From IMG/VR virus record IMGVR_UViG_3300028844_006851, positions 1-22,556 of that record: a stretch of 22,556 nt of DNA, one strand, 5' to 3'. Shown piece by piece: positions 6,568 through 17,908 of this stretch. Numbering within the stretch: the stretch's first letter is position 1; each line of letters opens with the position of its first letter. The notes below the pieces were generated by a model. That model saw only the letters and a list, made by a program, of their open reading frames with translations. It was not told where the DNA came from and searched no databases. Source of the stretch: a virus. Made by a program: the position numbers and the translations under genes.

Positions 6568-6876
6568 ATGAGAAAAGTAACAGAACAAATCAAACAAGCC
6601 TTTAATAACGGCACATCTTTAAAAGTCGGCAATACACGTACAGACGGGCAAACCGTTTGGCTGCATGGTAACGCCATTGTTAAGCGTGACCCTGACGGGT
6701 TGGTGCGTTGGTCGCTTGCAGGATGGAATACGCCCACCACACGCGAACGCGTCAACGGCATAGCCAATGCCAATGTTTTTCAGTTTAAATTCGAGCCTGT
6801 ACTAAACGGCGAAGTAATTGACGCAAACGATTGGTTCGCTAGTAACACTACATTGCCCGACATTCTAGTGTTCTAA
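6568..6876 (+). CDS. Hypothetical phage protein, 102 residues
   Basis: Begins MRKVTEQIKQAF; a helical N-terminus is followed by a compact beta-like region with LHGNAIVKR and SLAGWNTPTTRERVNGI. The combination of a short HGN-x-I motif and GWxTxTTRERVN recurs in small phage proteins of unknown function, so the gene is conserved rather than random. The weak ribosome site AGGAAA lies 11 bases upstream. The stop codon TAA (6874-6876) is the first three bases of repeat element R1, so the gene abuts the element directly. Confidence 0.85.
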   Translation: MRKVTEQIKQAFNNGTSLKVGNTRTDGQTVWLHGNAIVKRDPDGLVRWSLAGWNTPTTRERVNGIANANVFQFKFEPVLNGEVIDANDWFASNTTLPDILVF

Positions 6877-6939
6877 GTCGTTGACTATCAGCGCCTTAGG
6901 GCGCCCCCGCGCCGCAAGTCGTTGGTATACAGGTACTTA
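6874..6939 (+). repeat. Double-palindrome element R1
   Basis: Left palindrome arms TAAGTCGTTGA / TCAGCGCCTTA; spacer GGGCGCCCCCGCGCCG; second palindrome starts CAAGTCGTTGG. Between two plus-strand genes; supplies the stop codon of the first. Confidence 0.9.
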
Positions 6940-6966
6940 CAGCGCAAAAAAAAGTGAAAAAAAAAC

Positions 6967-6995
6967 TTGCAATTAGCCTGCAATGGTGGTACCTT
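6967..6995 (+). promoter_or_regulatory. Leaderless-type promoter for 7001
   Basis: -35 TTGCAA (6967-6972), 17-base spacer, -10 TACCTT (6990-6995), five bases, ATG 7001. An A-rich GTGAAA stretch precedes the -35, as at several sister promoters. Confidence 0.75.
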
Positions 6996-7000
6996 TAGGT

Positions 7001-7204
7001 ATGAGTTCATTTATGATAAAGTCAAGAATACAAGATGTTCAACGTCAGCTCGATGGAGCTACTGATGCCGAAGAGATTGCTCGGTTTAAGCAGGACATAC
7101 GTGAGTGGAAGCGCCACCTGCACGATGCTGAGATGATCGAGTTCGAGGAGCGAGTAGGCTTCAAGTCCATGGAGCGCAACCATGGTGTATGGGACGAGTG
7201 CTAA
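7001..7204 (+). CDS. Small hypothetical helical protein
   Basis: A 67-residue protein, MSSFMIKSRIQDVQ. ATG 7001 is chosen over an in-frame ATG at 6983 because the latter lies inside the promoter spacer. Almost entirely charged helix (QRQLDGATDAEEIARFKQDIREWKR) and ending HGVWDEC; likely a small coiled-coil protein. It forms a one-gene cassette: promoter before it, element R1 upstream and R2 downstream. No family is recognised. Confidence 0.75.
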   Translation: MSSFMIKSRIQDVQRQLDGATDAEEIARFKQDIREWKRHLHDAEMIEFEERVGFKSMERNHGVWDEC

Positions 7205-7212
7205 TCGTCTCC

Positions 7213-7278
7213 TAAGTCGCTGATAACCAAGGGGTTACGGCGCGGGGGCCGCGTAAGTCGTTGATATACAGCAACTTA
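7213..7278 (+). repeat. Double-palindrome element R2
   Basis: First arms TAAGTCGCTGA / CCAAGGGGTTA, spacer CGGCGCGGGGGCCGCG (roughly the reverse complement of the R1 spacer), second arms TAAGTCGTTGA / ACAGCAACTTA. Between two plus-strand genes. Confidence 0.9.
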
Positions 7279-7318
7279 TGAAAAAAAATAAAAAAAACAA
7301 AAAAAGTGAAAATAAAGT

Positions 7319-7347
7319 TTGCAATTACTACTCTTTAGTGGTACATT
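7319..7347 (+). promoter_or_regulatory. Leaderless-type promoter for 7354
   Basis: -35 TTGCAA, 17-base spacer, -10 TACATT (7342-7347), GTATAT, ATG 7354. No ribosome-binding site is present. Confidence 0.8.
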
Positions 7348-7353
7348 GTATAT

Positions 7354-7635
7354 ATGATTAAGAATAAAACATTCGTAGCAAGCGTTCATGTCTCTTCCCT
7401 CGATGGCGAAGCAATTTCCTTATGGAATAGCAATACCAAGTCATACATCGACATTGACAAGACACATCATGCGATCACTATACAAGCTGAAGACAAGCAC
7501 GAAGTAAGGCGAAAAGTTGCTCGCATGATTCGCACGCTTCAACCAAAGTTGCAATTTCAAACAAGCATCCAACGCAAAGATGGCGATAATGCTCAATACT
7601 ACATCCAAGAAATAAGAGAAAAAAAGACAAAATAA
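7354..7635 (+). CDS. Hypothetical protein, 93 residues
   Basis: Begins MIKNKTFVASVHVSS and alternates beta strands (AVSLWNSNTKS-like, HAITIQAEDKHEV) with a basic helix (RRKVARMIRTLQPK) and a lysine-rich tail (EIREKKTK). It could be a small alpha/beta nucleic-acid- or protein-binding factor; nothing more specific can be read. It is a leaderless first gene, followed only 38 bases later by the independently promoted 7674 gene. Confidence 0.8.
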   Translation: MIKNKTFVASVHVSSLDGEAISLWNSNTKSYIDIDKTHHAITIQAEDKHEVRRKVARMIRTLQPKLQFQTSIQRKDGDNAQYYIQEIREKKTK

Positions 7636-7638
7636 AGT

Positions 7639-7667
7639 TTGCAATTATCTGAAAACTAGCTTATATT
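7639..7667 (+). promoter_or_regulatory. Leaderless-type promoter for 7674
   Basis: -35 TTGCAA (7639-7644), 17-base spacer, -10 TATATT (7662-7667), GTATAT, ATG 7674; starts four bases after the preceding stop codon. Confidence 0.8.
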
Positions 7668-7673
7668 GTATAT

Positions 7674-7901
7674 ATGAATCAAATAGAAGAAGTAAGAAAA
7701 GAATTAAATAGAGATCTCGACCTTGGGCTTGCTCTCTCTAAAGCCGAGGGAAACCTCAACTACTTAGCAGGAGAATCCAATCAAGAGAATTGGCAATCTT
7801 CCATGACTCAAGGAATGGCTATACTCGACGCCTTGGAAGCCGTGCAGGTTGCCCGTAAAGCTTGGCAAGAAATCATTACCGAGAAAAGAGCAAATGGCTA
7901 A
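7674..7901 (+). CDS. Small hypothetical helical protein
   Basis: A 75-residue, acidic, helical protein: MNQIEEVRKELNRDLDL, then KAEGNLNYLAGES and a second helix GMAILDALEAVQVARKAWQE. Probably a two-helix bundle. It is leaderless, and the next gene (7914) starts 12 bases after its stop, so the two form a bicistronic unit bounded downstream by R3. Function unknown. Confidence 0.78.
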   Translation: MNQIEEVRKELNRDLDLGLALSKAEGNLNYLAGESNQENWQSSMTQGMAILDALEAVQVARKAWQEIITEKRANG

Positions 7902-7913
7902 AGAAAAAATCTT

Positions 7914-8063
7914 ATGTTTATACTAAAGTCAATCCTTAATCAGGCAGGGTCTGTCTGGAAAGTAGAATCCATCGCCATGCGCAAGCATGACGCTGAGCGC
8001 CTCCTTCGCAGGAGAGCAGCTCGCAATGACGGCACCCGTAGGTACGGGCTATTCAAGGCATAA
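7914..8063 (+). CDS. Small basic protein, 49 residues
   Basis: A short frame, MFILKSILNQAGSVWKVESI, followed by an arginine-rich helix (MRKHDAERLLRRRAARNDG) and RRYGLFKA. The strongly basic C-terminal half suggests nucleic-acid binding. It follows the 7674 gene with a weak AAAGAAA ribosome site. Its TAA stop (8061-8063) is the first three bases of element R3, the same gene-to-repeat junction as at 6876. High GC third positions match neighbouring genes. Confidence 0.65.
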   Translation: MFILKSILNQAGSVWKVESIAMRKHDAERLLRRRAARNDGTRRYGLFKA

Positions 8064-8126
8064 GTCCTTGATAGTCAGGTACTTAGGGCGCCCCCGCGCC
8101 GTAAGTCGTTGATAGTCAACAACTTA
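8061..8126 (+). repeat. Double-palindrome element R3
   Basis: First arms TAAGTCCTTGA / TCAGGTACTTA, spacer GGGCGCCCCCGCGCCG, second arms TAAGTCGTTGA / TCAACAACTTA. Supplies the stop codon of the 7914 gene. Confidence 0.9.
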
Positions 8127-8203
8127 GGGAATCTTTTGACACAGCGCAGCCGAAGGCCCGCCCGCCTTTTATTTGGCTTATTTACATTTATCGTCAAATT
8201 AAT

Positions 8204-8232
8204 TTGACTTAGGGCCGCAATGGCCTTATGTT
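8204..8232 (+). promoter_or_regulatory. Leaderless-type promoter for 8239
   Basis: -35 TTGACT (8204-8209), 17-base spacer, -10 TATGTT (8227-8232), ATATAT, ATG 8239. Confidence 0.75.
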
Positions 8233-8238
8233 ATATAT

Positions 8239-8478
8239 ATGGAAAACGAAAATGATTCACTCGCCCGCCTCGCCCATGTCAACGGCATCACTGATGTCGA
8301 GTTTGAAGTTCAGGAGAAAGAGCTTGCCCGTCTTGCTCGCCTTGATAGGATACTCGGCGATATCAGGAACAGCGACGAACCTGCTGAGATGCCAGAAGTA
8401 CACCGCAACCATGAAGAGCCTAGCTCTGACCTATATCAGGACTATGACTATGGATACCATGACCAATACGACTTTTAA
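8239..8478 (+). CDS. Small acidic hypothetical protein
   Basis: A 79-residue, very acidic protein: MENENDSLARLAHVNGIT, helix VQEKELARLARLDRILGDIRNS, and a Tyr/Asp-rich tail (LYQDYDYGYHDQYDF). An overlapping +1 frame of similar length is a shadow; this frame is chosen because its ATG is six bases after the -10. The acidic tail could mimic nucleic acid or bind a basic partner, as in some phage inhibitors; this is inference only. R3 lies upstream and R4 begins two bases after the stop codon. Confidence 0.75.
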   Translation: MENENDSLARLAHVNGITDVEFEVQEKELARLARLDRILGDIRNSDEPAEMPEVHRNHEEPSSDLYQDYDYGYHDQYDF

Positions 8479-8480
8479 CA

Positions 8481-8546
8481 TAAGTCCTTGATAGTCAGGC
8501 GCTTAGGGCGCCCCCGCGCCGTAAGCCGTTGATTACCAACGACTTA
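8481..8546 (+). repeat. Double-palindrome element R4
   Basis: First arms TAAGTCCTTGA / TCAGGCGCTTA, spacer GGGCGCCCCCGCGCCG, second arms TAAGCCGTTGA / CCAACGACTTA. Between convergent genes (8239 plus, 8570 minus). Confidence 0.9.
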
Positions 8547-8569
8547 CGACCTTTTAACTAACTATGAAG

Positions 8570-9064
8570 TTAAGCGACTTGAGCGAGCAACTCACCAAAT
8601 TCACTATTGAGCTTTTCTTGCTTGACTTGGTAAGTTCTAAGCTTTGCAGTTGCTTGCCTTGGGGTAGGCTTTGGGCTTGCGCCTAAAACTGCATTACCGA
8701 GAGTCTTAAACAAGAATTTAAGAATGACCCTGTCGATGTCGGTGACATTTGGATTGGGGTTGGAACAGCCATGTGAACTTGGCGCATGGTGGAGTTTAGC
8801 ATTGTAGCCCTTTGACTCGACCAAATCAGCAAAGAAACGAATGGTGTTAATTACCTTTTGCTCTTTGTCAAGAAAGTGTTTGAATTGCCTAGTATAAACT
8901 AAATCATCCTCGTTGAGAACATTCGGATAAGAATGTTGGTTAGCAGTGCCTTGGGCAAAATGCATCTGCATTCTGAGGCGAGGCTCTAAGGAAGTTGAAC
9001 CACCTTTGATGTGGATAGTTTTGGAACGTTTGTTGTAGTAGAATGCAATGTATATGTTTTTCAT
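8570..9064 (-). CDS. Hypothetical protein, 164 residues
   Basis: Begins MKNIYIAFYYNKRSKTIHIKGG, followed by SLEPRLRMQMHFAQG, a helical middle (KHFLDKEQKVINTIRFFADLVES) and a basic C-terminal helix (PRQATAKLRTYQVKQEKL). No known catalytic motif. It has no promoter of its own at the ATG, unlike its neighbours, and lies 45 bases after the 9110-9283 gene, so it is probably the second gene of that leaderless transcript. The gap contains an A-run but no clear Shine-Dalgarno site. Confidence 0.8.
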   Translation of the reverse strand: MKNIYIAFYYNKRSKTIHIKGGSTSLEPRLRMQMHFAQGTANQHSYPNVLNEDDLVYTRQFKHFLDKEQKVINTIRFFADLVESKGYNAKLHHAPSSHGCSNPNPNVTDIDRVILKFLFKTLGNAVLGASPKPTPRQATAKLRTYQVKQEKLNSEFGELLAQVA

Positions 9065-9109
9065 AATCAGTTTTTTTTGTAGTTATTGTTAGGTTAGAAT
9101 AAATTTATA

Positions 9110-9283
9110 TTAGACTTTTTCCATGAGTCCGTCAACATTAATCATATCTTTTTTGTGTGCTTTTGCAAGTTGTCTTGCAATACGGATTGCCTTGCTTCTG
9201 CGCTCGACCTCCTCGACGAACTCTCCAAAAGCGAAGACTTGAAAAAATTTAGTGAAGTTTGGGTTTTGTCTTATCGTTATCAT
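9110..9283 (-). CDS. 57-residue protein, paralogue of 13771-13944
   Basis: ATG 9283 (MITIRQNPNFTKFF) is selected because a leaderless-type promoter ends six bases upstream; longer readings run through the promoter. The protein is basic, with VFAFGEFVEEVERRSKA followed by an arginine/lysine helix. It matches the 13771-13944 product in length (57 residues) and in the positions of MITI, NPNF, FG, V-x-x-V, RxKA/RARA, LA-K-L-like and HK, so the two are paralogues. Many residues differ, so the duplication is not recent. Function is unknown; the fold may be DNA-binding. Confidence 0.75.
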   Translation of the reverse strand: MITIRQNPNFTKFFQVFAFGEFVEEVERRSKAIRIARQLAKAHKKDMINVDGLMEKV

Positions 9284-9289
9284 AATATA

Positions 9290-9318
9290 AATATAATGAA
9301 TTTTTCGTCGAATTGCAA
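9290..9318 (-). promoter_or_regulatory. Leaderless-type promoter for 9283
   Basis: Minus strand: -35 TTGCAA (9313-9318), 17-base spacer, -10 TATATT (9290-9295), six bases, ATG. Confidence 0.8.
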
Positions 9319-9355
9319 GGAAAAAGTGAAGTTTTTTTAATCTTTTTTTTTGTTG

Positions 9356-9422
9356 TAAGTCTTTGATGGTCAAGCACTTACGGCGGCCCGCGCACCCTAA
9401 GTCGTTGAATATCAATGACTTA
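9356..9422 (+). repeat. Double-palindrome element R5
   Basis: First arms TAAGTCTTTGA / TCAAGCACTTA, 17-base spacer CGGCGGCCCGCGCACCC, second arms TAAGTCGTTGA / TCAATGACTTA. Between divergent genes, separating their two promoters. Confidence 0.9.
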
Positions 9423-9442
9423 AAAAAAAGTGAAACTTTTTC

Positions 9443-9471
9443 TTGACTTTGGCCCAGAACAGAGGTAGATT
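9443..9471 (+). promoter_or_regulatory. Leaderless-type promoter for 9477
   Basis: -35 TTGACT, 17-base spacer (TTGGCCCAGAACAGAGG), -10 TAGATT, AAGGT, ATG 9477. Preceded by the shared GTGAAACTTTTTC element. Confidence 0.8.
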
Positions 9472-9476
9472 AAGGT

Positions 9477-9680
9477 ATGAAGAAAGCAATAATAACACAA
9501 AAACAAATAAATGAAGAAAATTTCGATATCAACTTTCAGGCATGGATGGAAGATATAGGATTTTCGCACATCCTGACTCACGCCAAATCTGGCTACAGCT
9601 TTTATGAAGATCCAGGCGGCAACCTCTGGGAGTGGGATCAAATGATTGATGCTTTCAAAAAAGATTCCCTAACTCGTTGA
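9477..9680 (+). CDS. Small hypothetical protein ending inside R6
   Basis: A 67-residue protein, MKKAIITQKQINEENFDINF, with an aromatic, acidic centre (QAWMEDIGFSHI, SGYSFYEDPGGNLWEWDQ). The EDPGGNLWEW-type motif recalls small phage proteins but no family name is justified. The final residues LTR and the TGA stop are encoded by the left arm of R6 (9670-9680), so element and coding sequence overlap by 11 bases. Single-gene leaderless cassette between R5 and R6. Confidence 0.78.
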   Translation: MKKAIITQKQINEENFDINFQAWMEDIGFSHILTHAKSGYSFYEDPGGNLWEWDQMIDAFKKDSLTR

Positions 9681-9736
9681 TTATCAGCGGGTTACGGCGG
9701 CCCGCGCGCCCTAAGTGCTTGATAGTCAACGACTTA
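9670..9736 (+). repeat. Double-palindrome element R6
   Basis: First arms TAACTCGTTGA / TCAGCGGGTTA (outer bases changed on both sides relative to TAAG/CTTA, so pairing is kept), spacer CGGCGGCCCGCGCGCCC, second arms TAAGTGCTTGA / TCAACGACTTA. Carries the stop of the 9477 gene. Confidence 0.9.
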
Positions 9737-9766
9737 CGAAAAGATAAAAAAAAGTGAAACTTTTTC

Positions 9767-9795
9767 TTGACTTTTGCCCAGGATAGGGCTATATT
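9767..9795 (+). promoter_or_regulatory. Leaderless-type promoter for 9801
   Basis: -35 TTGACT, 17-base spacer, -10 TATATT (9790-9795), AGGGT, ATG 9801; nearly the same sequence as the 9477 and 11799 promoters. Confidence 0.8.
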
Positions 9796-9800
9796 AGGGT

Positions 9801-9944
9801 ATGAATAAAAATAATACATCTCGCAAAAATACTAACGCTGACAAAAAAGTCAACATCTGCCCTGCGCTAAATCAAATTTTCTCAGTACACGGAAAATCTC
9901 TAAACCAGCAGTTGGTCGCAATAACTGCGATTAAGAAAAGTTAA
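9801..9944 (+). CDS. 47-residue hypothetical protein
   Basis: A short frame, MNKNNTSRKNTNADKKVNIC, then ALNQIFSVHGKSLNQQLVAI and AIKKS. The basic, Asn/Lys-rich N-terminus is probably disordered; the C-terminal part could form one amphipathic helix. The case for it being real rests on its ATG standing five bases after a strong promoter and on occupying the full cassette between R6 and R7. Function unknown. Confidence 0.6.
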   Translation: MNKNNTSRKNTNADKKVNICPALNQIFSVHGKSLNQQLVAITAIKKS

Positions 9945-9956
9945 CCTTAAATGTCG

Positions 9957-10023
9957 TAACTTGTTGGTTGTCAGCGAGTTACGGCGGCCCGCGCGCCCTA
10001 AGTCGTTGGTAGTCAACAACTTA
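9957..10023 (+). repeat. Double-palindrome element R7
   Basis: First arms TAACTTGTTGG / TCAGCGAGTTA, spacer CGGCGGCCCGCGCGCCC identical to R6, second arms TAAGTCGTTGG / TCAACAACTTA. Between convergent genes. Confidence 0.9.
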
Positions 10024-10030
10024 GGTAAAA

Positions 10031-10073
10031 AGCGCAGCGCAGCGCAGCGGCGTCAAGCCTTTTATTTGGCAAT
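10031..10073. other. GCGCA micro-repeat and possible weak terminator
   Basis: About four tandem copies of a GCGCA-like unit are followed by GGC-GTCAA-GCC and TTTTATTT. A closely similar CCTTTTATTTGGC ending follows R3 (8162-8178). This could be a weak plus-strand terminator after R7 and R3; the stem is short. Confidence 0.35.
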
Positions 10074-10080
10074 ACCCTAT

Positions 10081-10275
10081 TTAGTCCCTCATGAGGTACA
10101 ACCTGCCTTCTGCATTCCACCCTTCATTTGATACATCACGGAATAATCCACTCTCAAGATTCACTTTCAGGCAATCTTCGCTCACATACCTTTCCCCTCT
10201 CTTGGCATCTGCTTCTGAGCTAGTTTCTATGATCGCGACTTTACCTTGATCTATTGTTGTAATTATAAGTTTCAT
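10081..10275 (-). CDS. Small hypothetical protein, 64 residues
   Basis: ATG 10275 (MKLIITTIDQGKVAII) is chosen because a perfect TATAAT lies six bases upstream; the longer reading starts with TTG. A compact alpha/beta-like protein: strand, strand, EADAKRGERYVSEDCLKV helix, then GWNAEGRLYLMRD. Last of three consecutive minus-strand genes that each appear to have their own promoter. Function unknown. Confidence 0.7.
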   Translation of the reverse strand: MKLIITTIDQGKVAIIETSSEADAKRGERYVSEDCLKVNLESGLFRDVSNEGWNAEGRLYLMRD

Positions 10276-10281
10276 TGTGAG

Positions 10282-10310
10282 ATTATATCTTGCCACATAA
10301 TGTAAAAGAC
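10282..10310 (-). promoter_or_regulatory. Probable leaderless-type promoter for 10275
   Basis: Perfect -10 TATAAT (10282-10287) six bases before the ATG; the -35 position (GTCTTT) is poor, making this the weakest of the set. Confidence 0.5.
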
Positions 10311-10345
10311 TGCCAACCAAGGTAGGAATAAAAGTATGTCCCAAC

Positions 10346-10609
10346 TCATGAATAAACTCCTTTCATTTCATCGGACAAACCGATCTCTTGATCTTCTTCG
10401 TCAATATCTTCGGCTGAGTCTGAGTGAAGGAATTGAGATTCGTCCTCAAGATCTTCTTTCTGAGCATCAAGCAATCCATGCTCTGTGACTACATCCTCTG
10501 TTTTTATCTCTGCGATAAATTCCTCAACTGATTGAGTCGGCATGATTGTTTCTGAGTTTTCGACTGCTTTAGCGATAACTGCGATTCTTTGTTCTAGTGT
10601 TAGTTCCAT
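10346..10609 (-). CDS. Small acidic hypothetical protein
   Basis: An 87-residue, strongly acidic protein: MELTLEQRIAVIAKAVENSET, helix SVEEFIAEIKTED, and an Asp/Glu-rich C-terminal half (DLEDESQFLHSDSAEDIDEEDQ). The N-terminal helix pair may be an interaction module. Acidic tails are common among early phage proteins that block host nucleic-acid-binding enzymes, but that function is not demonstrated. Its -35 overlaps the end of the 10638 gene. Confidence 0.78.
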   Translation of the reverse strand: MELTLEQRIAVIAKAVENSETIMPTQSVEEFIAEIKTEDVVTEHGLLDAQKEDLEDESQFLHSDSAEDIDEEDQEIGLSDEMKGVYS

Positions 10610-10616
10610 AATATAT

Positions 10617-10645
10617 AATATAGTTTAGTTGTTTTAATTAGTCAA
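10617..10645 (-). promoter_or_regulatory. Leaderless-type promoter for 10609
   Basis: -35 TTGACT (10640-10645), overlapping the stop codon of the upstream gene; 17-base spacer; -10 TATATT (10617-10622); seven bases to ATG. Confidence 0.75.
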
Positions 10646-10991
10646 GCCCTAATTCTTTGTCGTTATCTGCTTTTATCTTTCTTAATAAGTCAACCCATAC
10701 AAATCCATTAAGTTGAGCATCTCTCATGTGTTTACTGATTTGAGCAGGAGATTGACTTGTAAGAACATCGCCACATACTGCGAGAGGAATTGTTGCATCT
10801 TTAAAAGTCATTAAAACTTCGTATTCATTGTCGTCAACATGACCATAAAGACCACGACCATCTTCAGTGTTGGCAACGACAGAAACCATGAAGTCGCCAA
10901 ACTTTAGTTGAGCCATCACTGCCTTTGGGCAAGTAGGATGAGTATGAAAAGCGAGATTGTCGAAGTCGAGTAGTTGTTGTTTTGTTGTCAT
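10638..10991 (-). CDS. Hypothetical protein, 117 residues
   Basis: Begins MTTKQQLLDFDNLAFHTHPT, and contains a beta-rich middle (LKFGDFMVSVVANTEDG, YGHVDDNEYEVLMTFKD) and a C-terminal helix (PAQISKHMRDAQLNGFVWVDLLRKI). A compact globular protein is likely. Phages often carry one-off proteins of this size in their early regions. No motif identifies a function. Its leaderless promoter has a perfect TTGACA -35. Confidence 0.8.
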   Translation of the reverse strand: MTTKQQLLDFDNLAFHTHPTCPKAVMAQLKFGDFMVSVVANTEDGRGLYGHVDDNEYEVLMTFKDATIPLAVCGDVLTSQSPAQISKHMRDAQLNGFVWVDLLRKIKADNDKELGLD

Positions 10992-10997
10992 ATATAT

Positions 10998-11026
10998 AAA
11001 CTAAGCTATAACACGCCTCGTGTCAA
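10998..11026 (-). promoter_or_regulatory. Leaderless-type promoter for 10991
   Basis: -35 TTGACA (11021-11026), 17-base spacer, -10 TAGTTT (10998-11003), ATATAT, ATG. Confidence 0.8.
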
Positions 11027-11066
11027 ATAAAAAGAAAAAAAAGATGAATTAATTTTAATATTGTTG

Positions 11067-11132
11067 TAAGTCGTTGAATATCAAGGGTTTGCGCGGGCCA
11101 GGCGCCGTAAGTCGTTGACTTACAGTGACTTA
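11067..11132 (+). repeat. Double-palindrome element R8
   Basis: First arms TAAGTCGTTGA / TCAAGGGTTTG, spacer CGCGGGCCAGGCGCCG, second arms TAAGTCGTTGA / ACAGTGACTTA. Between two minus-strand genes. Confidence 0.9.
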
Positions 11133-11143
11133 GGGGATTAACC

Positions 11144-11335
11144 TTACGCTTCTATCAGTTGTTTAAATTCATCGTAAACCTTTTGCTTGCTACCTTTTAG
11201 ATTAAACTCTTGCTTGATGATGGAGTAGCAACTTCTGCCCCTTGACATCTTCAAGCCATTAAGCTCAAGCCTTAGCCCCCGAAGTAATGTTTTAAATCTG
11301 AATGCTTCAATTTGTGTTGGTGTGTATAATGTCAT
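11144..11335 (-). CDS. Small conserved phage/plasmid-type protein
   Basis: A 63-residue protein, MTLYTPTQIEAFRFKTLLRG, then LRLELNGLKMSRGRSCYSII and KQEFNLKGSKQKVYDEF. The TPxQIxAFRxxTLxxxLxLExxGxKxSRGRSxYxIIK pattern is one I recognise from short, widely distributed phage and plasmid proteins of unknown function. Basic, all-helical; probably nucleic-acid-associated by charge. It sits 11 bases from R8 and is transcribed from its own promoter, which overlaps the end of 11367-11612. Confidence 0.8.
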   Translation of the reverse strand: MTLYTPTQIEAFRFKTLLRGLRLELNGLKMSRGRSCYSIIKQEFNLKGSKQKVYDEFKQLIEA

Positions 11336-11341
11336 AATAAT

Positions 11342-11370
11342 AATATAGTTTAGTTGTTGTTGTATGTCAA
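11342..11370 (-). promoter_or_regulatory. Leaderless-type promoter for 11335
   Basis: -35 TTGACA (11365-11370) overlapping the stop codon of the upstream gene, 17-base spacer, -10 TATATT (11342-11347), six bases, ATG. Confidence 0.8.
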
Positions 11371-11612
11371 ACGATTTCTTTAACCATTTTCATTAATTGC
11401 TTTACTTCGTCTAGGTTTTGTTGAAGCAAGTTGAGTTGTGCAAGTATGCCTTTATAGCCAACATACCCTCCGTTCATGTGACCCTGCCAAGTGTTGCCCA
11501 CTTTCTTGAATGAAACATCCCAACCACAATGATGATCATATGCTTTTAGGATGCCGTTTGGCAAGCGCTCGAATGTCAGTTCTTTTCCGTTTGTTATGTC
11601 TTTTAATGTCAT
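11367..11612 (-). CDS. Hypothetical protein, 81 residues
   Basis: ATG 11612 (MTLKDITNGKELTFERL) follows a leaderless-type promoter; a longer reading would translate the -10/-35 region. The N-terminal half is a small beta-sheet (ILKAYDHHCGWDVSFKKVG, TWQGHMNGGYVGYKG), the C-terminal third a helix (LNLLQQNLDEVKQLMKMV). Unknown function. Shares with 11144 a single minus-strand run starting beside R9. Confidence 0.75.
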   Translation of the reverse strand: MTLKDITNGKELTFERLPNGILKAYDHHCGWDVSFKKVGNTWQGHMNGGYVGYKGILAQLNLLQQNLDEVKQLMKMVKEIV

Positions 11613-11618
11613 ATATAC

Positions 11619-11647
11619 AATGTAAGGCATAAACCTAATTATAGCAA
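11619..11647 (-). promoter_or_regulatory. Leaderless-type promoter for 11612
   Basis: -35 TTGCTA (11642-11647), 17-base spacer, -10 TACATT (11619-11624), GTATAT, ATG. Confidence 0.8.
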
Positions 11648-11677
11648 GAAAAAAGATCAACTAAATGCATTTTGTTG

Positions 11678-11744
11678 TAAGTCGTTGAGTACCAAGTACT
11701 TGCGGCGGCCCGCGTGCCCTAAGTCGTTGAATATCAAGTACTTA
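11678..11744 (+). repeat. Double-palindrome element R9
   Basis: First arms TAAGTCGTTGA / CCAAGTACTTG, spacer CGGCGGCCCGCGTGCCC, second arms TAAGTCGTTGA / TCAAGTACTTA. Between divergent promoters. Confidence 0.9.
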
Positions 11745-11764
11745 AAGAAAGATAAAACTTTTTC

Positions 11765-11793: not shown

Positions 11794-11798
11794 AAAGT

Positions 11799-12128: not shown

Positions 12129-12133
12129 ACCCT

Positions 12134-13051: not shown

Positions 13052-13057
13052 AACTAC

Positions 13058-13086
13058 ATACTAAGGCACTTTTTTAAATATAGCAA
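13058..13086 (-). promoter_or_regulatory. Leaderless-type promoter for 13051
   Basis: -35 TTGCTA (13081-13086), 17-base spacer, -10 TAGTAT (13058-13063), GTAGTT, ATG. Confidence 0.8.
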
Positions 13087-13116
13087 GAAAAAAGATCAAC
13101 TAAATGAAAATAGTTG

Positions 13117-13182
13117 TAAGTCGTTGGATATCAAGGAGTTACGTGGGCCAGGCGCCGTAAGTCGTTGAACATCAACGGTTTA
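13117..13182 (+). repeat. Double-palindrome element R11
   Basis: First arms TAAGTCGTTGG / TCAAGGAGTTA, spacer CGTGGGCCAGGCGCCG, second arms TAAGTCGTTGA / TCAACGGTTTA. Lies between a minus-strand terminator and the next minus-strand promoter. Confidence 0.9.
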
Positions 13183-13199
13183 CGGAAAAAATACACTAC

Positions 13200-13232
13200 A
13201 AAAAGGCCCCGCCCGTCCGAAGGGCGAGGTCT
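13200..13232 (-). terminator. Rho-independent terminator after 13258
   Basis: Minus strand GACCTCGCCC / GGGCGGGGCC around a TTCGGAC-type loop, followed by a T-run; located 26 bases after the stop codon. Confidence 0.85.
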
Positions 13233-13257
13233 TATTTACGTTAAACCTATTTAGGGC

Positions 13258-13587
13258 TCAAATGACTTGGTGCGCATTCTCGTAAAATTCTTTATCATGC
13301 TCGCCTGTCTTTTTCACCTTGCGAAGCTCTTCGCACTCAGAAGGGTAAGCATGGCAGGGTTCGTCTTTTCCGTTCTGCTTGATATACCAAGCAGGTGGGT
13401 CAAGAGGTTGAACAAGCAAACCGATAAACCCATACTCCACAAAGTACTTGAGTATTGTTGATCTACCAATCCCATTGATGCAAACATTTACTTCAGTACC
13501 TACGGCAGGTATTGGCTTTTCGCAAACCCATTGGAGTTTCTCGAACTCGGTATAAGATGATACGGGTTGTTCTACTTTTTCGTGCAT
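13258..13587 (-). CDS. Conserved phage protein of unknown function
   Basis: A 109-residue protein: MHEKVEQPVSSYTEFEKLQW, then the characteristic PIPAVGTEVNVCINGIGRST and VEYGFIGLLVQPLDPPAWYI. The IPAxGxxVxVxINGIGxxT...YFxExGFxGxxV...PPAWYxKQN pattern recurs in small phage proteins and forms a probable SH3-like beta barrel; no activity is known. ATG 13587 overlaps the previous gene by 16 bases and has the strong ribosome site AAGGAAGAAG, so here translation is Shine-Dalgarno-driven and coupled, unlike promoter-proximal genes. Confidence 0.85.
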   Translation of the reverse strand: MHEKVEQPVSSYTEFEKLQWVCEKPIPAVGTEVNVCINGIGRSTILKYFVEYGFIGLLVQPLDPPAWYIKQNGKDEPCHAYPSECEELRKVKKTGEHDKEFYENAHQVI

Positions 13588-13757
13588 TTTTCTTCTTCCT
13601 TCTTTACTTTGTTTAATTGATCGATACTCTTAGCCAGAAAGATGATATCTTCTCTTGCTATCTGTTTTCCCTCGGCTGAGGCGTTATCATTTTCGAGAAC
13701 CTGCAAGTAAACTCTTACTGCTGACTCCCAACTAGGTGCTATATCTATTGTTTCCAT
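13572..13757 (-). CDS. Small hypothetical helical protein
   Basis: A 61-residue protein: METIDIAPSWESAVRVYLQV, then LENDNASAEGKQIAREDIIF and a basic/acidic helical end (DQLNKVKKEEEKCTKK). Mostly helix. It is the leaderless first gene of a two-gene unit with 13258-13587, whose ribosome site lies within its last codons. The promoter overlaps the end of the 13771-13944 gene. Function unknown. Confidence 0.75.
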   Translation of the reverse strand: METIDIAPSWESAVRVYLQVLENDNASAEGKQIAREDIIFLAKSIDQLNKVKKEEEKCTKK

Positions 13758-13764
13758 ACTTAGT

Positions 13765-13794
13765 ATTCTATTATTTTCTGTTGACGATTGTCAA
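13765..13794 (-). promoter_or_regulatory. Leaderless-type promoter for 13757
   Basis: -35 TTGACA (13789-13794), 18-base spacer, -10 TAGAAT (13765-13770), seven bases, ATG; lies within the end of the upstream gene. Confidence 0.7.
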
Positions 13795-13944
13795 CCTTTC
13801 TCCTGTTTTTATCTTGTGGTCGATGTAGAGTTTGTTTGCTAAGTGGTTCGCTCTAGCTCTTGATTTTACATTATCAACTAGCTTGCCGAATACACGAATA
13901 TTGAGCCACTCTTTGAAGTTTGGGTTTGTACTAATCGTTATCAT
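13771..13944 (-). CDS. 57-residue protein, paralogue of 9110-9283
   Basis: A short gene, MITISTNPNFKEWLNIRVFG, continuing KLVDNVKSRARANHLANKLY and ending GERLTIVNRK. It aligns without gaps to the 9110-9283 product at MITI, NPNF, FG, V-x-x-V, the basic RxKA/RARA stretch and HK, and both have 57 residues. ATG 13944 sits six bases after a -10. The helix KSRARANHLANKL is basic, compatible with nucleic-acid contact. Function unknown. Confidence 0.72.
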   Translation of the reverse strand: MITISTNPNFKEWLNIRVFGKLVDNVKSRARANHLANKLYIDHKIKTGERLTIVNRK

Positions 13945-13950
13945 ATATAC

Positions 13951-13979
13951 ATACTAGAGCCATTCGTGCTAAACTGCAA
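13951..13979 (-). promoter_or_regulatory. Leaderless-type promoter for 13944
   Basis: -35 TTGCAG (13974-13979), 17-base spacer, -10 TAGTAT (13951-13956), GTATAT, ATG. Confidence 0.8.
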
Positions 13980-14010
13980 GAAAAAAATGATGTTTAAATG
14001 CATTTTGTCG

Positions 14011-14076
14011 TAACCTCTTGGTTATCAAGTAGTTACAGCGCCCCCGCGCCGTAAGTCGTTGATAGTCAACAACTTA
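14011..14076 (+). repeat. Double-palindrome element R12
   Basis: First arms TAACCTCTTGG / TCAAGTAGTTA, spacer CAGCGCCCCCGCGCCG, second arms TAAGTCGTTGA / TCAACAACTTA. Between a minus-strand terminator and the next minus-strand promoter. Confidence 0.9.
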
Positions 14077-14092
14077 GGTAATTGTCAAGCAC

Positions 14093-14126
14093 AAAAAAAA
14101 CCCCCTCCCGCTACGCAGGAAGGGGT
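14093..14126 (-). terminator. Rho-independent terminator after 14142
   Basis: Minus strand ACCCCTTCCTGC / GCGGGAGGGGG stem with a short loop, followed by eight T; 16 bases beyond the stop codon. Confidence 0.88.
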
Positions 14127-14141
14127 AAGTAACAACGACGT

Positions 14142-15005
14142 TTACACTTCGACTAATTCGTCTTCGATGACCTCCATGTCAAGAACATTCTCGACGTGAT
14201 CGTCCATCTCAAAACTGACCTCGCCATCAAGAACTGAATGCAAAGCATCAGAGCGATTTGGCAAGGCAACTAAATTCCCCTTGTAGACCTCAGTGAAGGC
14301 ATTGTAAAGAGAATTTACATTGCGATCCCAAAATTGAGGATGATCGGAGGATTCCCATTGGTCAACCACGTCGATGATCTTGGACTTAGGTAAAGCACCT
14401 GCCTTGCAAGCACGAATGACAATGTCATTGACTTGGGCATTGGTAAGCTCCACATTCTTGTAGGCATTGATGCGCTGATCTTGACCATGCCAAAATCCGA
14501 ACAATTTACCTAGCGCACGATTGATCGTGAAGTCCAAGTCCTGCAATATGTTGCGAGTATGACGACGAGCCAACTTAATGGTATTAGTAAAAATAAGGTT
14601 GTCGCAAACAAATGGAGCATCACCTGCGCACAATCCCGCAGGAAAAGTCTTGTCGTGAGAATTGCGCAAACCGATTACACAACCACGATCCGACTCGGCA
14701 CGATTGGCATGATCCACGGCAAACAAACCAAAATAATGATTGTTGTTCCTAGCAAGAGAATGAACCTCGTCTTGAATGGTGAACCCTTGATCGCCTAAGA
14801 AACCTCTAGCACGAGTTACTAAATCGTGGTGAGCGATAGGTTGGTAAGAGATTGCCCTCTCGCCATTGGCATTTTCTTTTTTGCGAAACTCGACAGGTGG
14901 AGTAGGAACTCCTACGACTTGATCGTAGTCTACGAGAGTGCGATTGCCTCCACAAATGCTAAGGTTAATTTTGCGAGGAGCGATGTTGTTTTCTTGATTT
15001 TCCAT
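14142..15005 (-). CDS. DUF932-like phage protein
   Basis: A 287-residue protein. The N-terminus has SYQPIAHHDLVTRARGFLGD; the centre has the recognisable CVIGLRNSHDKTFPAGLCAG and PFVCDNLIFTN, then RRHTRNILQDL. I associate the xGLRNSHDKS...FVCDNLxF...RHT pattern with DUF932 proteins of phages and plasmids, whose role is unknown (an anti-restriction-like function is sometimes suggested). The C-terminus is acidic (EMDDHVENVLDMEVIEDELV). GC content is higher than the neighbours. It is a leaderless single-gene unit with a strong terminator. Confidence 0.72.
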   Translation of the reverse strand: MENQENNIAPRKINLSICGGNRTLVDYDQVVGVPTPPVEFRKKENANGERAISYQPIAHHDLVTRARGFLGDQGFTIQDEVHSLARNNNHYFGLFAVDHANRAESDRGCVIGLRNSHDKTFPAGLCAGDAPFVCDNLIFTNTIKLARRHTRNILQDLDFTINRALGKLFGFWHGQDQRINAYKNVELTNAQVNDIVIRACKAGALPKSKIIDVVDQWESSDHPQFWDRNVNSLYNAFTEVYKGNLVALPNRSDALHSVLDGEVSFEMDDHVENVLDMEVIEDELVEV

Positions 15006-15013
15006 AATATATA

Positions 15014-15042
15014 ATAATAGTTGAGTTTTAGTGTTTAGTCAA
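15014..15042 (-). promoter_or_regulatory. Leaderless-type promoter for 15005
   Basis: -35 TTGACT (15037-15042), 17-base spacer, -10 TATTAT (15014-15019), eight bases, ATG. Spacing is slightly longer than in sister promoters. Confidence 0.65.
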
Positions 15043-15045
15043 GGA

Positions 15046-15279
15046 TTAATTTCTTGAAAATTGTTCTGAGTTATTCTGCATTTGATCGTAAGCATCTGCG
15101 CGACGAGCAATCTCTTTAAGAGTGACCCCCATGACTGCAAGTAGCATGGTTTCGTCTTCGTCGATTTCGCCTTGCTTAGGCTCAATGAAAGTTTCGAACA
15201 ACCACCCCATAGTATGCTCCATAGCATCAATGGCAGTTTCAAATGAGTCGTCCGATGAGTAGTCTTTTTTAATATTCAT
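15046..15279 (-). CDS. Small acidic hypothetical protein
   Basis: A 77-residue protein: MNIKKDYSSDDSFETAIDAM, then EHTMGWLFETFIEPKQGEID and MLLAVMGVTLKEIARRADAYD. Helical and acidic. Its ATG lies inside the end of 15269-15394 (overlap 11 bases), so it is translationally coupled to that leaderless gene, with only a weak AAGAAA ribosome site. Function unknown. Confidence 0.75.
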   Translation of the reverse strand: MNIKKDYSSDDSFETAIDAMEHTMGWLFETFIEPKQGEIDEDETMLLAVMGVTLKEIARRADAYDQMQNNSEQFSRN

Positions 15280-15394
15280 AGTTTCTTTTATGCTTAGGTT
15301 TCCTGTTGTACTTAGAGTTATTCTTGTGAGGACGTGCCTTGGTGAAGAGGACTTGAAGTCTGATCTTCGGGGTCTTTGTCTTTCTCACTTTCAT
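15269..15394 (-). CDS. 41-residue highly basic peptide
   Basis: ATG 15394 (MKVRKTKTPKIRLQVLF) is chosen because it stands six bases from a -10; the longer reading translates the promoter. The whole peptide is Lys/Arg-rich (TKARPHKNNSKYNRKPKHKR), so it may bind nucleic acid, or may serve mainly as the translated lead-in to the coupled 15046-15279 gene. Function unknown. Confidence 0.6.
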   Translation of the reverse strand: MKVRKTKTPKIRLQVLFTKARPHKNNSKYNRKPKHKRNYEY

Positions 15395-15400
15395 ATATAC

Positions 15401-15429
15401 ATAGTAACACCTAGAGGTTAAAAGCGCAA
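15401..15429 (-). promoter_or_regulatory. Leaderless-type promoter for 15394
   Basis: -35 TTGCGC (15424-15429), 17-base spacer, -10 TACTAT (15401-15406), GTATAT, ATG. Confidence 0.75.
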
Positions 15430-15460
15430 GAAAAAAATGATGTTTAAATGCATTTTGTTG

Positions 15461-15526
15461 TAAGTCGTTGAATATCAAGGACTTGCGCGGGCCAGGCGCC
15501 GTAAGTCGTTGAGCACCAAAGGTTTA
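15461..15526 (+). repeat. Double-palindrome element R13
   Basis: First arms TAAGTCGTTGA / TCAAGGACTTG, spacer CGCGGGCCAGGCGCCG identical to R8, second arms TAAGTCGTTGA / CCAAAGGTTTA. Between divergent promoters. Confidence 0.9.
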
Positions 15527-15552
15527 TGGCATAAAAAAAATAAACTAAATTC

Positions 15553-15581
15553 TTGACTCTCGGTCATTTATGCCCTAGTAT
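15553..15581 (+). promoter_or_regulatory. Promoter for 15618 with a true leader
   Basis: -35 TTGACT, 17-base spacer, -10 TAGTAT; start expected near 15588, leaving about 30 bases that contain AAAGGA seven bases before ATG 15618. It contrasts with the leaderless sites. Confidence 0.75.
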
Positions 15582-15617
15582 ATATACATAACATTAATCA
15601 TTAACCAAAGGAAAAAT

Positions 15618-15926
15618 ATGACCCACACAATAAATAGCGAAACTCTAGAAACTGCAGTTCAGATGAAACAAGGAATCGTGGTACACGATTTGGAAACCCT
15701 CAATCAATTAGTCGGTGATGCAATTCTTCAGCTTGCCTCTCAGGACACACTTGGATCACTGAATGCTAAGTCTGCGGTAGAGAAAGTTGCTAAAGATCAA
15801 TTTGAAAAAGATTACGGAAGTCGCCAGATCTCATGGGTAGATTATGCTACCAAATTCTCCAAGAATCTTGACGGCAACCCTTTTCTTCTTGACGAGATAC
15901 TCGCTGATAGATTAGAGAGGTCTTAA
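15618..15926 (+). CDS. Hypothetical protein, 102 residues
   Basis: Begins MTHTINSETLETAVQMKQGI; helical throughout (HDLETLNQLVGDAILQLAS, KSAVEKVAKDQFEKDYG), with RQISWVDYATKFSKNL and an acidic end (LDEILADRLERS). Has a conventional leader and Shine-Dalgarno site (AAAGGA), which may mean a higher or differently timed expression than the leaderless genes. It forms the cassette between R13 and R14. Function unknown. Confidence 0.82.
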   Translation: MTHTINSETLETAVQMKQGIVVHDLETLNQLVGDAILQLASQDTLGSLNAKSAVEKVAKDQFEKDYGSRQISWVDYATKFSKNLDGNPFLLDEILADRLERS

Positions 15927-15941
15927 TCTCTCAAAAGCCCA

Positions 15942-16007
15942 TAAGTCCTTGGCAGTCAAGGGCTTAGGGCGCGGGGGCGCCGTAAGTCGTTGATATTCAA
16001 CAACTTA
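15942..16007 (+). repeat. Double-palindrome element R14
   Basis: First arms TAAGTCCTTGG / TCAAGGGCTTA, spacer GGGCGCGGGGGCGCCG, second arms TAAGTCGTTGA / TCAACAACTTA. Between convergent genes, next to the terminator of the minus-strand operon. Confidence 0.9.
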
Positions 16008-16023
16008 GGGAAAATAACCTCAC

Positions 16024-16056
16024 AAAAAAAACCCCACCTTTCCGAAGGGTGGGGTT
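16024..16056 (-). terminator. Terminator of the 17776-16076 operon
   Basis: Minus strand AACCCCACCCT / AGGTGGGGT stem with TCGGAA-type loop, then eight T. It lies about 20 bases after the last stop codon of the operon. Confidence 0.9.
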
Positions 16057-16075
16057 ATATTTGGTCACTTCCTAT

Positions 16076-16228
16076 TTAGGAGTGACATTTTTGTAATCGA
16101 TATAATTTTTGAAGCAAGTAATTATGCTCTCTTTTAAGTTTGTAGTAAGACGGGGTGTTCTCACCGTAGATTTCCCTACAGGCCAATTGGTACCCAAGGA
16201 ATCTGACTCTTTCTCTTAATGTATCCAT
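16076..16228 (-). CDS. 50-residue basic hypothetical protein
   Basis: A short frame, MDTLRERVRFLGYQLACREI, then YGENTPSYYKLKREHNYLLQ and KLYRLQKCHS. Basic, helical, tyrosine-rich; composition and codon use are protein-like. It starts three bases after the stop of 16232-16471 and ends just before a strong terminator, so it is the last gene of the seven-gene operon starting at 17776. Function unknown. Confidence 0.65.
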   Translation of the reverse strand: MDTLRERVRFLGYQLACREIYGENTPSYYKLKREHNYLLQKLYRLQKCHS

Positions 16229-16231
16229 AAT

Positions 16232-16471
16232 CTAGACCTTGTTGAGGCTAACAATTCTGTCGTAGCGAAAAGAGCGAACTTCGCCACGATTAAAACAGTG
16301 TGCCCTGAAACCCGCAACACTCAAGCCTTGCTTTATGTTTCCGAACTCATTCCTGTGTTTGGGTTGTGATATGGTGTACATTGCGGTGTTGCCACCCTTG
16401 GTTTTATATACCAAGCTGTACATGGGGTTGAATAATCTAGCAATTTTAACTAGTAACTTTTTCATCTTCAT
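16232..16471 (-). CDS. Small protein with WYL-like C-terminal motif
   Basis: A 79-residue protein with an N-terminal basic amphipathic helix (MKMKKLLVKIARLFNP) and a C-terminal half containing AGFRAHCFNRGEVRSFRYDRIVSL. The FRAxC...xGxxRxFRYDRI pattern resembles the core of WYL ligand-binding domains, here in a minimal form, so a sensory or regulatory role is possible; this is a tentative reading. The strong ribosome site GAGGAG lies five bases before ATG 16471, and the gene overlaps the preceding one by 26 bases. Confidence 0.72.
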   Translation of the reverse strand: MKMKKLLVKIARLFNPMYSLVYKTKGGNTAMYTISQPKHRNEFGNIKQGLSVAGFRAHCFNRGEVRSFRYDRIVSLNKV

Positions 16472-16685
16472 TTATCTCCTCTATTGGGTTTTTGTTGTAG
16501 TGGTTGTAGAGTTCGCACGCCTCATCGGCAGTCTCACAGGTGTAAGAAATAATATCTCTTCCGAAGTAGGGGTGGTAATTGTCTCGATTTTCTTCGAAAT
16601 AAACCTCCCATTGTTCAGTGCTTTCGTTGTAGCTAGGTAAGTCCATTGGTTTACCTACGCAGAGTGCTTCTATGTAATTGTTCAT
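16446..16685 (-). CDS. Acidic hypothetical protein, 79 residues
   Basis: Begins MNNYIEALCVGKPMDLPSYN; central EQWEVYFEENRDNYHPYFGR, then TCETADEACELYNHYNKN and an acidic end. The DEACELYNHYNK helix after a small beta-like part resembles DUF-type sensor-like phage proteins but no family is certain. It starts one base after the previous stop and overlaps the next gene; its ribosome site is poor, so coupling is likely. Confidence 0.75.
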   Translation of the reverse strand: MNNYIEALCVGKPMDLPSYNESTEQWEVYFEENRDNYHPYFGRDIISYTCETADEACELYNHYNKNPIEEINEDEKVTS

Positions 16686-16686
16686 T

Positions 16687-16902
16687 TTAATAATTGTTTA
16701 CTCCTTCTAATTCTGATTCTAACCATAGCATGGCTTTTTGTCTGATGTCACAGTGTGAGACTTCAGTAAATACATCGTCATTGACTCGAAGATAAAGATC
16801 ATTCCCGTGCTTGTTCTCAGTCTCTAAGTCGTTTGCTGAATACCATGCTTGAGCATAGTGTATTGCTCTTTTCTCTATCTGTTTTGATTCTTCTAATTTC
16901 AT
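16687..16902 (-). CDS. Hypothetical protein, 71 residues
   Basis: ATG 16902 (MKLEESKQIEKRAIHYAQ) is two bases after the preceding stop. A TTG at 16938, inside the preceding gene, is an alternative start with a GGAG site at good spacing and would add 12 residues. The protein is acidic and helical (AWYSANDLETENKHGND, HCDIRQKAMLWLESELEG). Unknown function; middle gene of the 17776-16076 operon. Confidence 0.7.
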   Translation of the reverse strand: MKLEESKQIEKRAIHYAQAWYSANDLETENKHGNDLYLRVNDDVFTEVSHCDIRQKAMLWLESELEGVNNY

Positions 16903-16903
16903 C

Positions 16904-17125
16904 TTAGCAAGGGATTGGTGAGTCTTCGTCTGTTTCAATGGTTACTCCGAAATGAGATGCTAGCTCTGAAATCATTGTATCCTTATTGAAATAATTATAT
17001 GCATGGGTTAAAAGTTGCTCTTGCTCTTCTCCTGTATGCCCGTCTCTGAGTTCATCATATATCTCAAAGATATTCATATTCCAGTTCCATCCTTCTACTC
17101 GTGATTCTATTTGTGATTTTGTCAT
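16904..17125 (-). CDS. Acidic hypothetical protein, 73 residues
   Basis: Begins MTKSQIESRVEGWNWNMNIF; helical with EIYDELRDGHTGEEQEQLL, and a C-terminal HFGVTIETDEDSPIP. Starts 13 bases after the previous stop with a weak AAGAAA site. Nothing identifies a function; position and spacing mark it as an operon gene. Confidence 0.75.
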   Translation of the reverse strand: MTKSQIESRVEGWNWNMNIFEIYDELRDGHTGEEQEQLLTHAYNYFNKDTMISELASHFGVTIETDEDSPIPC

Positions 17126-17138
17126 ATTTCTTGTTTGT

Positions 17139-17372
17139 TTATAGTTGTGCTGATTGAAAAGATGATTCTATTCTAAGCTCATTTTGTAATGATGTCAAAC
17201 TTAAAATGATATCTTCTAGGGTTTCTTCGGCAGACATCATGGTTGCGCCAAGTGGAAACTTTTCAGGGTGTTGTTCGTGTCGATCCAAACATACTTTGGA
17301 CATCGGATCGGCATATGCCATTTCTCCTCTGACTATGTCTAGGATGGTTTCTCTTATCTTTGCTTGTGTCAT
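17139..17372 (-). CDS. Acidic hypothetical protein, 77 residues
   Basis: Begins MTQAKIRETILDIVRGEMAY, with YADPMSKVCLDRHEQHPEKF in the middle and a helical C-terminus (SAEETLEDIILSLTSLQNEL). Its ATG lies two bases after the previous stop, with AGG as a weak ribosome site, so it depends on the 17776 promoter. Function unknown. Confidence 0.75.
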   Translation of the reverse strand: MTQAKIRETILDIVRGEMAYADPMSKVCLDRHEQHPEKFPLGATMMSAEETLEDIILSLTSLQNELRIESSFQSAQL

Positions 17373-17374
17373 AA

Positions 17375-17776
17375 TTACCTATTGTATGCGGTTACTTGGT
17401 TGTGTTGTAATAAAACTTGATCTGCATAGTATACAAAACTTTCGTCCTTCTTGTCAACAAAAGTCTCATACTTATATGGATTATATGTTACCTCTGTCGC
17501 GGGGAGATCGGTGTCTACATTCTCTGCATCTTGAAGATAACCCTTGACAAACGCATGAACATTCTTACGCTTCTCACGAAGAACCTTTTCCCTACCCTTA
17601 ACATCAACATGAAAATAGCAATCCCATAAACCAATGGAATGATTCTTTGGAATGTGAGCCTTAACTAATCCGTGTTGCTTGACTGACCAGCAGTCCTTGT
17701 GAAGATTCTTGTATACATAAACAGGTCGGTTTGACTTGATTATATATCGTGGGTCTTGTTGGTTTCTCTTTATCAT
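17375..17776 (-). CDS. Hypothetical protein, 133 residues, first gene of operon
   Basis: ATG 17776 (MIKRNQQDPRYIIKSNRPVY) is selected from the promoter position; a longer reading would translate the promoter. Basic and beta-rich: VYVYKNLHKDCWSVKQHG, GLWDCYFHVDVKGREK, a basic helix VLREKRKNVHAFVKGYLQD, then acidic LPATEVTYNPYKYETFVDKK. It heads seven tightly spaced minus-strand genes ending at a terminator at 16024. Unknown function. Confidence 0.8.
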   Translation of the reverse strand: MIKRNQQDPRYIIKSNRPVYVYKNLHKDCWSVKQHGLVKAHIPKNHSIGLWDCYFHVDVKGREKVLREKRKNVHAFVKGYLQDAENVDTDLPATEVTYNPYKYETFVDKKDESFVYYADQVLLQHNQVTAYNR

Positions 17777-17782
17777 ATATAC

Positions 17783-17811
17783 ATAGTAAGGCACTTTTAT
17801 GATTAAGGCAA
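17783..17811 (-). promoter_or_regulatory. Leaderless-type promoter for 17776 operon
   Basis: -35 TTGCCT (17806-17811), 17-base spacer, -10 TACTAT (17783-17788), GTATAT, ATG. Confidence 0.8.
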
Positions 17812-17842
17812 GAAAAAAGATCAATTAAAATGAATTTTGTCG

Positions 17843-17908
17843 TAAGTCTATGGTAATCAAGGGTTTACGGCACGGGGGCGCCGTAAGTCGTTGATAGTCA
17901 AGGACTTA
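17843..17908 (+). repeat. Double-palindrome element R15
   Basis: First arms TAAGTCTATGG / TCAAGGGTTTA, spacer CGGCACGGGGGCGCCG, second arms TAAGTCGTTGA / TCAAGGACTTA. Rightmost copy; between a minus-strand terminator and the next minus-strand promoter. Confidence 0.9.

Follow-up and report, generated by a model that had tools for sequence, protein, structure and literature searches.

The uncultured-virus record IMGVR_UViG_3300028844_006851, analyzed here over its full length of 22,556 nucleotides (22.6 kb; the window), contains 15 copies of a repeated double-palindrome element, all of which lie within positions 6874–17908 in an array of small genes. Each copy is composed of two 25-bp dyads of 11-3-11 build (L1, loop 1, R1 and L2, loop 2, R2; consensus TAAGTCGTTGA-nnn-TCAACGACTTA) flanking a GC-rich spacer of 16 or 17 bp, so that the element measures 66 bp, or 67 bp in copies 5, 6, 7, and 9. 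All copies were re-found with the positions and build given by a first-pass annotation made from the sequence alone. No further copy was detected in the window outside this range, even when 3 mismatches were allowed, in agreement with the annotated limits of 6.8–18 kb, and none of 100 first-order Markov sequences with the length and composition of the window yielded a copy matching the weakest real one.

As annotated, the copies are intergenic or overlap the 3ʹ end of a gene, and they occupy convergent (8481, 12134, and 15942), divergent (9356, 11678, and 15461), and tandem junctions alike. Every element in the window is the border of a transcription unit, with one element per border. Multi-gene units have no internal element, and as the seven-gene unit at 16076–17776 has none inside, the elements bound units and not single genes. 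Most units start with a sigma-70-like promoter in which the −10 box ends 6–7 nt upstream of the ATG, suggesting leaderless mRNAs from the cassette promoters (window 6998–17776). These promoters adjoin the elements at tandem and divergent junctions and are absent at convergent ones. Ordinary intrinsic terminators stand separately beside many elements.

Copies of the element are conserved elsewhere. A pattern search with one dyad matched at least 118 viral stretches, and the exact palindrome was present in 21 viral stretches, whereas a reversed control pattern of identical composition matched 0 stretches. These results ruled out a local low-complexity expansion, the fallback that had been named for the case that no conserved copies existed in other genomes. 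When 84,980 bacterial and archaeal species were searched, only 15 dyads were found, all of them single. The dyads were otherwise paired, with a start-to-start spacing that was nearly constant within a contig and varied between contigs (mostly 50, 58, 42, 48, 41, 52, or 53). On long contigs (100–223 kb), the dyads, among those listed, clustered in one stretch of approximately 5–15 kb. The DnaE protein of a 200-kb relative (G001), which also encodes UvsX-like, DnaB-like, ClpA-like, and NrdA-like proteins, had a match of 39–59% identity in all records longer than 100 kb but three, each with few dyads (G003 with a weak match, G004 and G019 with none). Isolate phages gave only distant matches to the proteins of the relatives, and a blastn search for the element among isolate phages returned no carrier. 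Because nearly all long carriers have the common divergent DnaE, the element characterizes a single family of large phages, which is broad and undescribed.

When genes were called over all loci, 0 of the 343 elements lay inside a predicted gene. Gene 5ʹ starts were almost never less than 20 bp from an element, with the nearest tenth at about 60 bp, and 3ʹ ends may abut it. The gap of about 60 bp before start codons would leave room for a promoter. In one locus (L077, reverse complement, 11902–12176), three elements follow one another in direct tandem between the same two genes, at intervals of about 14 bp.

The window was compared with its closest relative (L046) and with L062, L019, L016, L050, and L056, and many similar blocks started or stopped at elements. 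L046 lacks the window cassette at 15527–15941, and one element, at 10118, remains at the joint. The left flank, L1, loop 1, R1, and spacer of this element match the window copy at 15461 (spacer 15/16), while its R2 and right flank match the copy at 15942, with the switch located inside L2/loop 2. The element is thus clearly a hybrid of two window copies. Similar left/right splits were observed in L046 at the window elements 8061 and 9356, and L019 differed from the window by a single-cassette transplant and an inversion. Genes have thus been gained, lost, and reordered at the elements in related phages, which is the comparison that the first-pass annotation had proposed as a check. Neighboring genes with an element between them were still adjacent in a relative in 53% of cases (n = 352), compared to 83% for close in-array neighbors without an element and 88–94% for neighbors outside the arrays. 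For indels of 1–4 genes with elements on both sides, 59 of 62 joints kept an element, compared to 13 of 149 for indels without a flanking element. In element pairs with only the left flank in common, the similarity was 0.73 in loop 1 (background 0.47) and 0.76 in the spacer (background 0.53), and it was lower, 0.50, in loop 2 (background 0.40).

Table. Positions of the elements and selected features in the window
Feature	Position	Strand	Remarks
Element 1	6874–6939	+	66 bp; first TAA is the stop codon of gene 6568–6876
Element 2	7213–7278	+	66 bp
Element 3	8061–8126	+	66 bp; in L046, left part the same, loop 2, R2, and right flank different
Element 4	8481–8546	+	66 bp; convergent junction
Element 5	9356–9422	+	67 bp; divergent junction; left and right parts split in L046
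Element 6	9670–9736	+	67 bp; covers the last 11 bases of gene 9477–9680
Element 7	9957–10023	+	67 bp
Element 8	11067–11132	+	66 bp
Element 9	11678–11744	+	67 bp; divergent junction
Element 10	12134–12199	+	66 bp; convergent junction
Element 11	13117–13182	+	66 bp
Element 12	14011–14076	+	66 bp
Element 13	15461–15526	+	66 bp; divergent junction; left parent of the L046 hybrid
Element 14	15942–16007	+	66 bp; convergent junction; right parent of the L046 hybrid
Element 15	17843–17908	+	66 bp; right end of the array
Cassette (gene 15618–15926)	15527–15941		Missing in L046, where a single, hybrid element is left
Two cassettes	13183–15460		Missing in L062, where the flanking segments run on across a single element
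Seven-gene unit without internal element	16076–17776	−	
Ordinary intrinsic terminator, separate from element 12	14100–14126	−	Others at 13207–13229 and 17931–17964
Example of a cassette promoter beside an element	9443–9477	+	TTGACT-17-TAGATT; −10 box ends 6 nt before the ATG

In each arm, TAA and TTGA are nearly invariant and positions 4–8 are variable; L2 is the most conserved arm, with a mean identity of 93% between window copies. When the R arms were shuffled within the same array, no excess pairing was found for L1:R1 (z −1.6) or L2:R2 (z 1.1), and L1:R2 and L2:R1 paired less than the shuffles (z about −5). A weak pooled covariation at arm position 4 vanished on within-array shuffling, and an RNA or single-stranded DNA hairpin was rejected as the conserved feature; the single-strand structure that had been listed as a possible role found no compensatory covariation to back it. 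As the arms show no excess pairing within arrays, the evidence speaks for half-sites that would be read in double-stranded DNA, and not for a fold. Single copies fold well as RNA (z −3.3 to −6.8, six copies). The spacers are GC-rich and often self-complementary, most clearly in the group with a spacing of 58, and overall they are only slightly more foldable than shuffled sequences.

All fifteen copies had been annotated with the same polarity. The plus polarity is real but weaker than described, since the left arms are closer to the consensus than the right arms in 12 of the 15 copies, worse in 2, and equal in 1. Most arrays have a majority polarity. Its direction is unrelated to the coding strand, with a mean plus coding share of 0.50 in 29 strongly polar arrays, and a tie to gene direction was thereby ruled out. 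On the L091/L025 contig, three cassettes homologous to those of the window and L046 are reversed relative to element polarity. Because polarity reverses against cassettes between related phages in this way, the strand-polar role proposed from the window is unsupported. Polarity looks like a lineage-specific state, for which uneven recombination or copying within arrays may be one cause.

The Stenotrophomonas phage DLP6 (KU682439; PMC5349666) came up in a text search with the arm sequence. In DLP6, TCAACGACTTA forms direct pairs with a period of 25–26 bp that lie between genes, at the borders of units. Nine such places were counted in L144 and L145, the two stretches read, and a terminator and a promoter come after most of the pairs. 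The DLP6 boxes are like the elements in the identical 11-mer, the two copies per site, and the position at transcription-unit borders. Unlike the elements, they are direct repeats on one strand without a dyad, and mostly an intrinsic terminator follows. Another 18 viral stretches contain similar direct pairs, and a single group of near-identical contigs accounts for many of these stretches. Direct pairs in L151, L152, L153, L162, L167, and related loci belong to apparently unrelated viral groups, often with AAATCAACGACTTA and in three or four copies. Matches to the DLP6 box in other isolate phages and plasmids were at chance level, mostly single boxes, and were discarded.

We lean, if only just, toward reading the elements as protein-bound borders between self-contained cassettes, with a second function as homology when cassettes are exchanged. 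Each element would separate two such cassettes, with their own promoter and one to seven genes, within one hypervariable region. As portable homology, it would allow recombination between copies to insert, delete, and reorder cassettes, and each joint would be left with one (hybrid) element after the exchange. The phage's own homologous recombination could carry this out, given that a UvsX/RecA-like protein is encoded in the relative G001. With their fixed spacing, the four conserved 11-bp half-sites may bind a dimeric or tetrameric protein that would insulate neighboring units, and such binding would preserve the element sequence. In favor of this reading are the intergenic placement, the unit borders of the window, the indels that take one element along with the genes, the hybrid in L046, and the finding of no known site-specific recombinase family in the records searched. 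A role of the elements in recombination is likely, though not proven, and several observations weigh against it or against parts of this scheme. In genomes at least 88% identical, similarity blocks ended at elements in 15% of cases versus 13% expected, without enrichment; enrichment was seen only in more divergent comparisons (25% versus 11%), and divergence itself can end blocks. As the enrichment fails in pairs at least 88% identical, we did not use breakpoints as proof of recombination. Breaks are as frequent at element-free in-array junctions of at least 60 bp (57% kept), indicating that the region, and not only the element, is unstable. Elements with only the right flank in common are often shared whole, indicating that crossovers are not confined to one spot. 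The arms are degenerate and avoid perfect pairing, neither of which a pure homology role would need. Moreover, the compared pairs of relatives are not independent, the genes over the loci were called by a simple script, and no element-binding protein was identified.

It is possible, although rather unlikely, that the elements are primarily protein-binding insulators (a double operator or roadblock) acting in both directions, with recombination as a by-product of the repeated sequence. The four degenerate copies of one 11-bp half-site, held at a fixed spacing per genome and without compensatory pairing, suit this role, as do the elements at convergent junctions with no promoter near and the occurrence of the same 11-mer at unit borders of the unrelated phage DLP6 and the 18 further stretches. 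However, exactly one element travels with the genes in indels, and many elements already have separate intrinsic terminators beside them. These terminators bear as well on bidirectional transcription terminators or RNA processing hairpins, which we consider improbable. Plus-strand window genes stop directly at an element with no other terminator, and the element folds well as RNA; but the hairpin followed by a T-run that marks an intrinsic terminator is not present, as the T-run is missing at both ends, and ordinary terminators are also found in minus-strand units and in the group with a spacing of 58. Within arrays, covariation between the arms is lacking, shuffled arms are more complementary than L1:R2 and L2:R1, and spacer loops are found in both orientations. 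The first-pass annotation had likewise argued against a simple transcription terminator.

An integron-like, site-specific cassette system, in which attC-like sites would be cut by a dedicated recombinase, appears very improbable. As in attC arrays, there is one site per cassette, polarity is shared within arrays, and each site is composed of two simple 25-bp inverted-repeat parts around a lineage-specific palindromic center of variable length. In contrast to integrons, no tyrosine recombinase (PF00589) was found in 45 records, most of which were fragments, and neither a serine recombinase (PF00239) nor a Y1/RAYT transposase (PF01797) in 18 records, so that these enzymes were dismissed as cassette movers and the co-occurring recombinase expected for an exchange site was not recovered. 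The elements end in TAAG...CTTA and not in RYYYAAC/GTTRRRY, their spacing is constant within a genome, and they have no conserved single-strand fold. Crossovers spread beyond one position, cassettes occur in both orientations and invert, and polarity reverses against them between relatives. Bacterial REP/BIME sequences are also paired intergenic palindromes, but the elements are restricted to one phage region, have a different core, and come without the Y1 transposase in the 18 records searched. That neither the REP/BIME nor the attC core matches was already noted in the annotation.

Other comparisons are with systems that border genes in phages. Promoter early stem-loop (PeSL) motifs were reportedly described by Arbiol et al. 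2010 and Comeau et al. 2014. They are mobile regulatory cassettes of T4-type phages (PMC4503421). Like PeSLs, the elements are repeated intergenic motifs that border small variable genes near early-type promoters. A link to modular shuffling without a dedicated recombinase, as in PeSLs, is favored by the indel unit and the hybrid element but not by the breakpoints of near-identical genomes. Unlike PeSLs, they carry no promoter, occur at convergent junctions, and are not canonical terminators (no T-run, separate terminators nearby); their two dyads have a fixed spacing and another sequence, and their carriers have a PolIII-type DnaE, with no test made here placing them among the T4 relatives. 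By analogy, the elements would work like PeSLs, but their sequence, their geometry, and the group of phages that carry them are new. Boundary or linker sequences of lambdoid phages are short conserved stretches at gene borders that are considered to direct the homologous recombination of mosaic genomes with each other. The elements too are conserved sequences at gene borders, and their use in recombination is suggested by genome comparisons only. Lambdoid boundary sequences, however, are single short stretches, whereas here a rigid double-dyad element of 66–83 bp stands at every unit border.

The likeness to DLP6 may reflect convergence, a shared binding specificity, or coincidence. It is unlikely, but conceivable, that TCAACGACTTA is a unit-border signal of unrelated phages, used in varied geometries and read by one undescribed, widely shared protein, and that it organizes an integrase-free cassette array in the present family. 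The elements point to a DNA-binding activity that unrelated phages may share. They further offer a direct test of how small accessory genes may enter and leave large phage genomes when no cassette integrase is at work. The dyad pair and its spacing also provide a sequence handle for finding and classifying this undescribed phage family in metagenomes.

Proteins encoded in the window include Hsp20, trypsin-like, GP88, and DUF932 members, together with tail-fiber-like matches. Array genes of the GP88 family (window 12314–13051) and of the phage L5 gp82 family (17375–17776) recur in 39 and 34 loci, respectively, across spacing groups. Among the Rfam models, only the manA RNA motif (RF01745, 70 bits) matched the window, at 18511–18721 on the minus strand, and the elements match no known RNA family.

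Some of the single dyads in bacterial genomes have recognizable surroundings. In L123, L124, and L129, the dyad lies just 3ʹ of an apparent tRNA gene, within a larger hairpin; in L130 and L134, it lies 20–30 bp from a parS-like TGTTCCACATGGAACA; and in a Treponema (L135), it is located between dnaA and dnaN.

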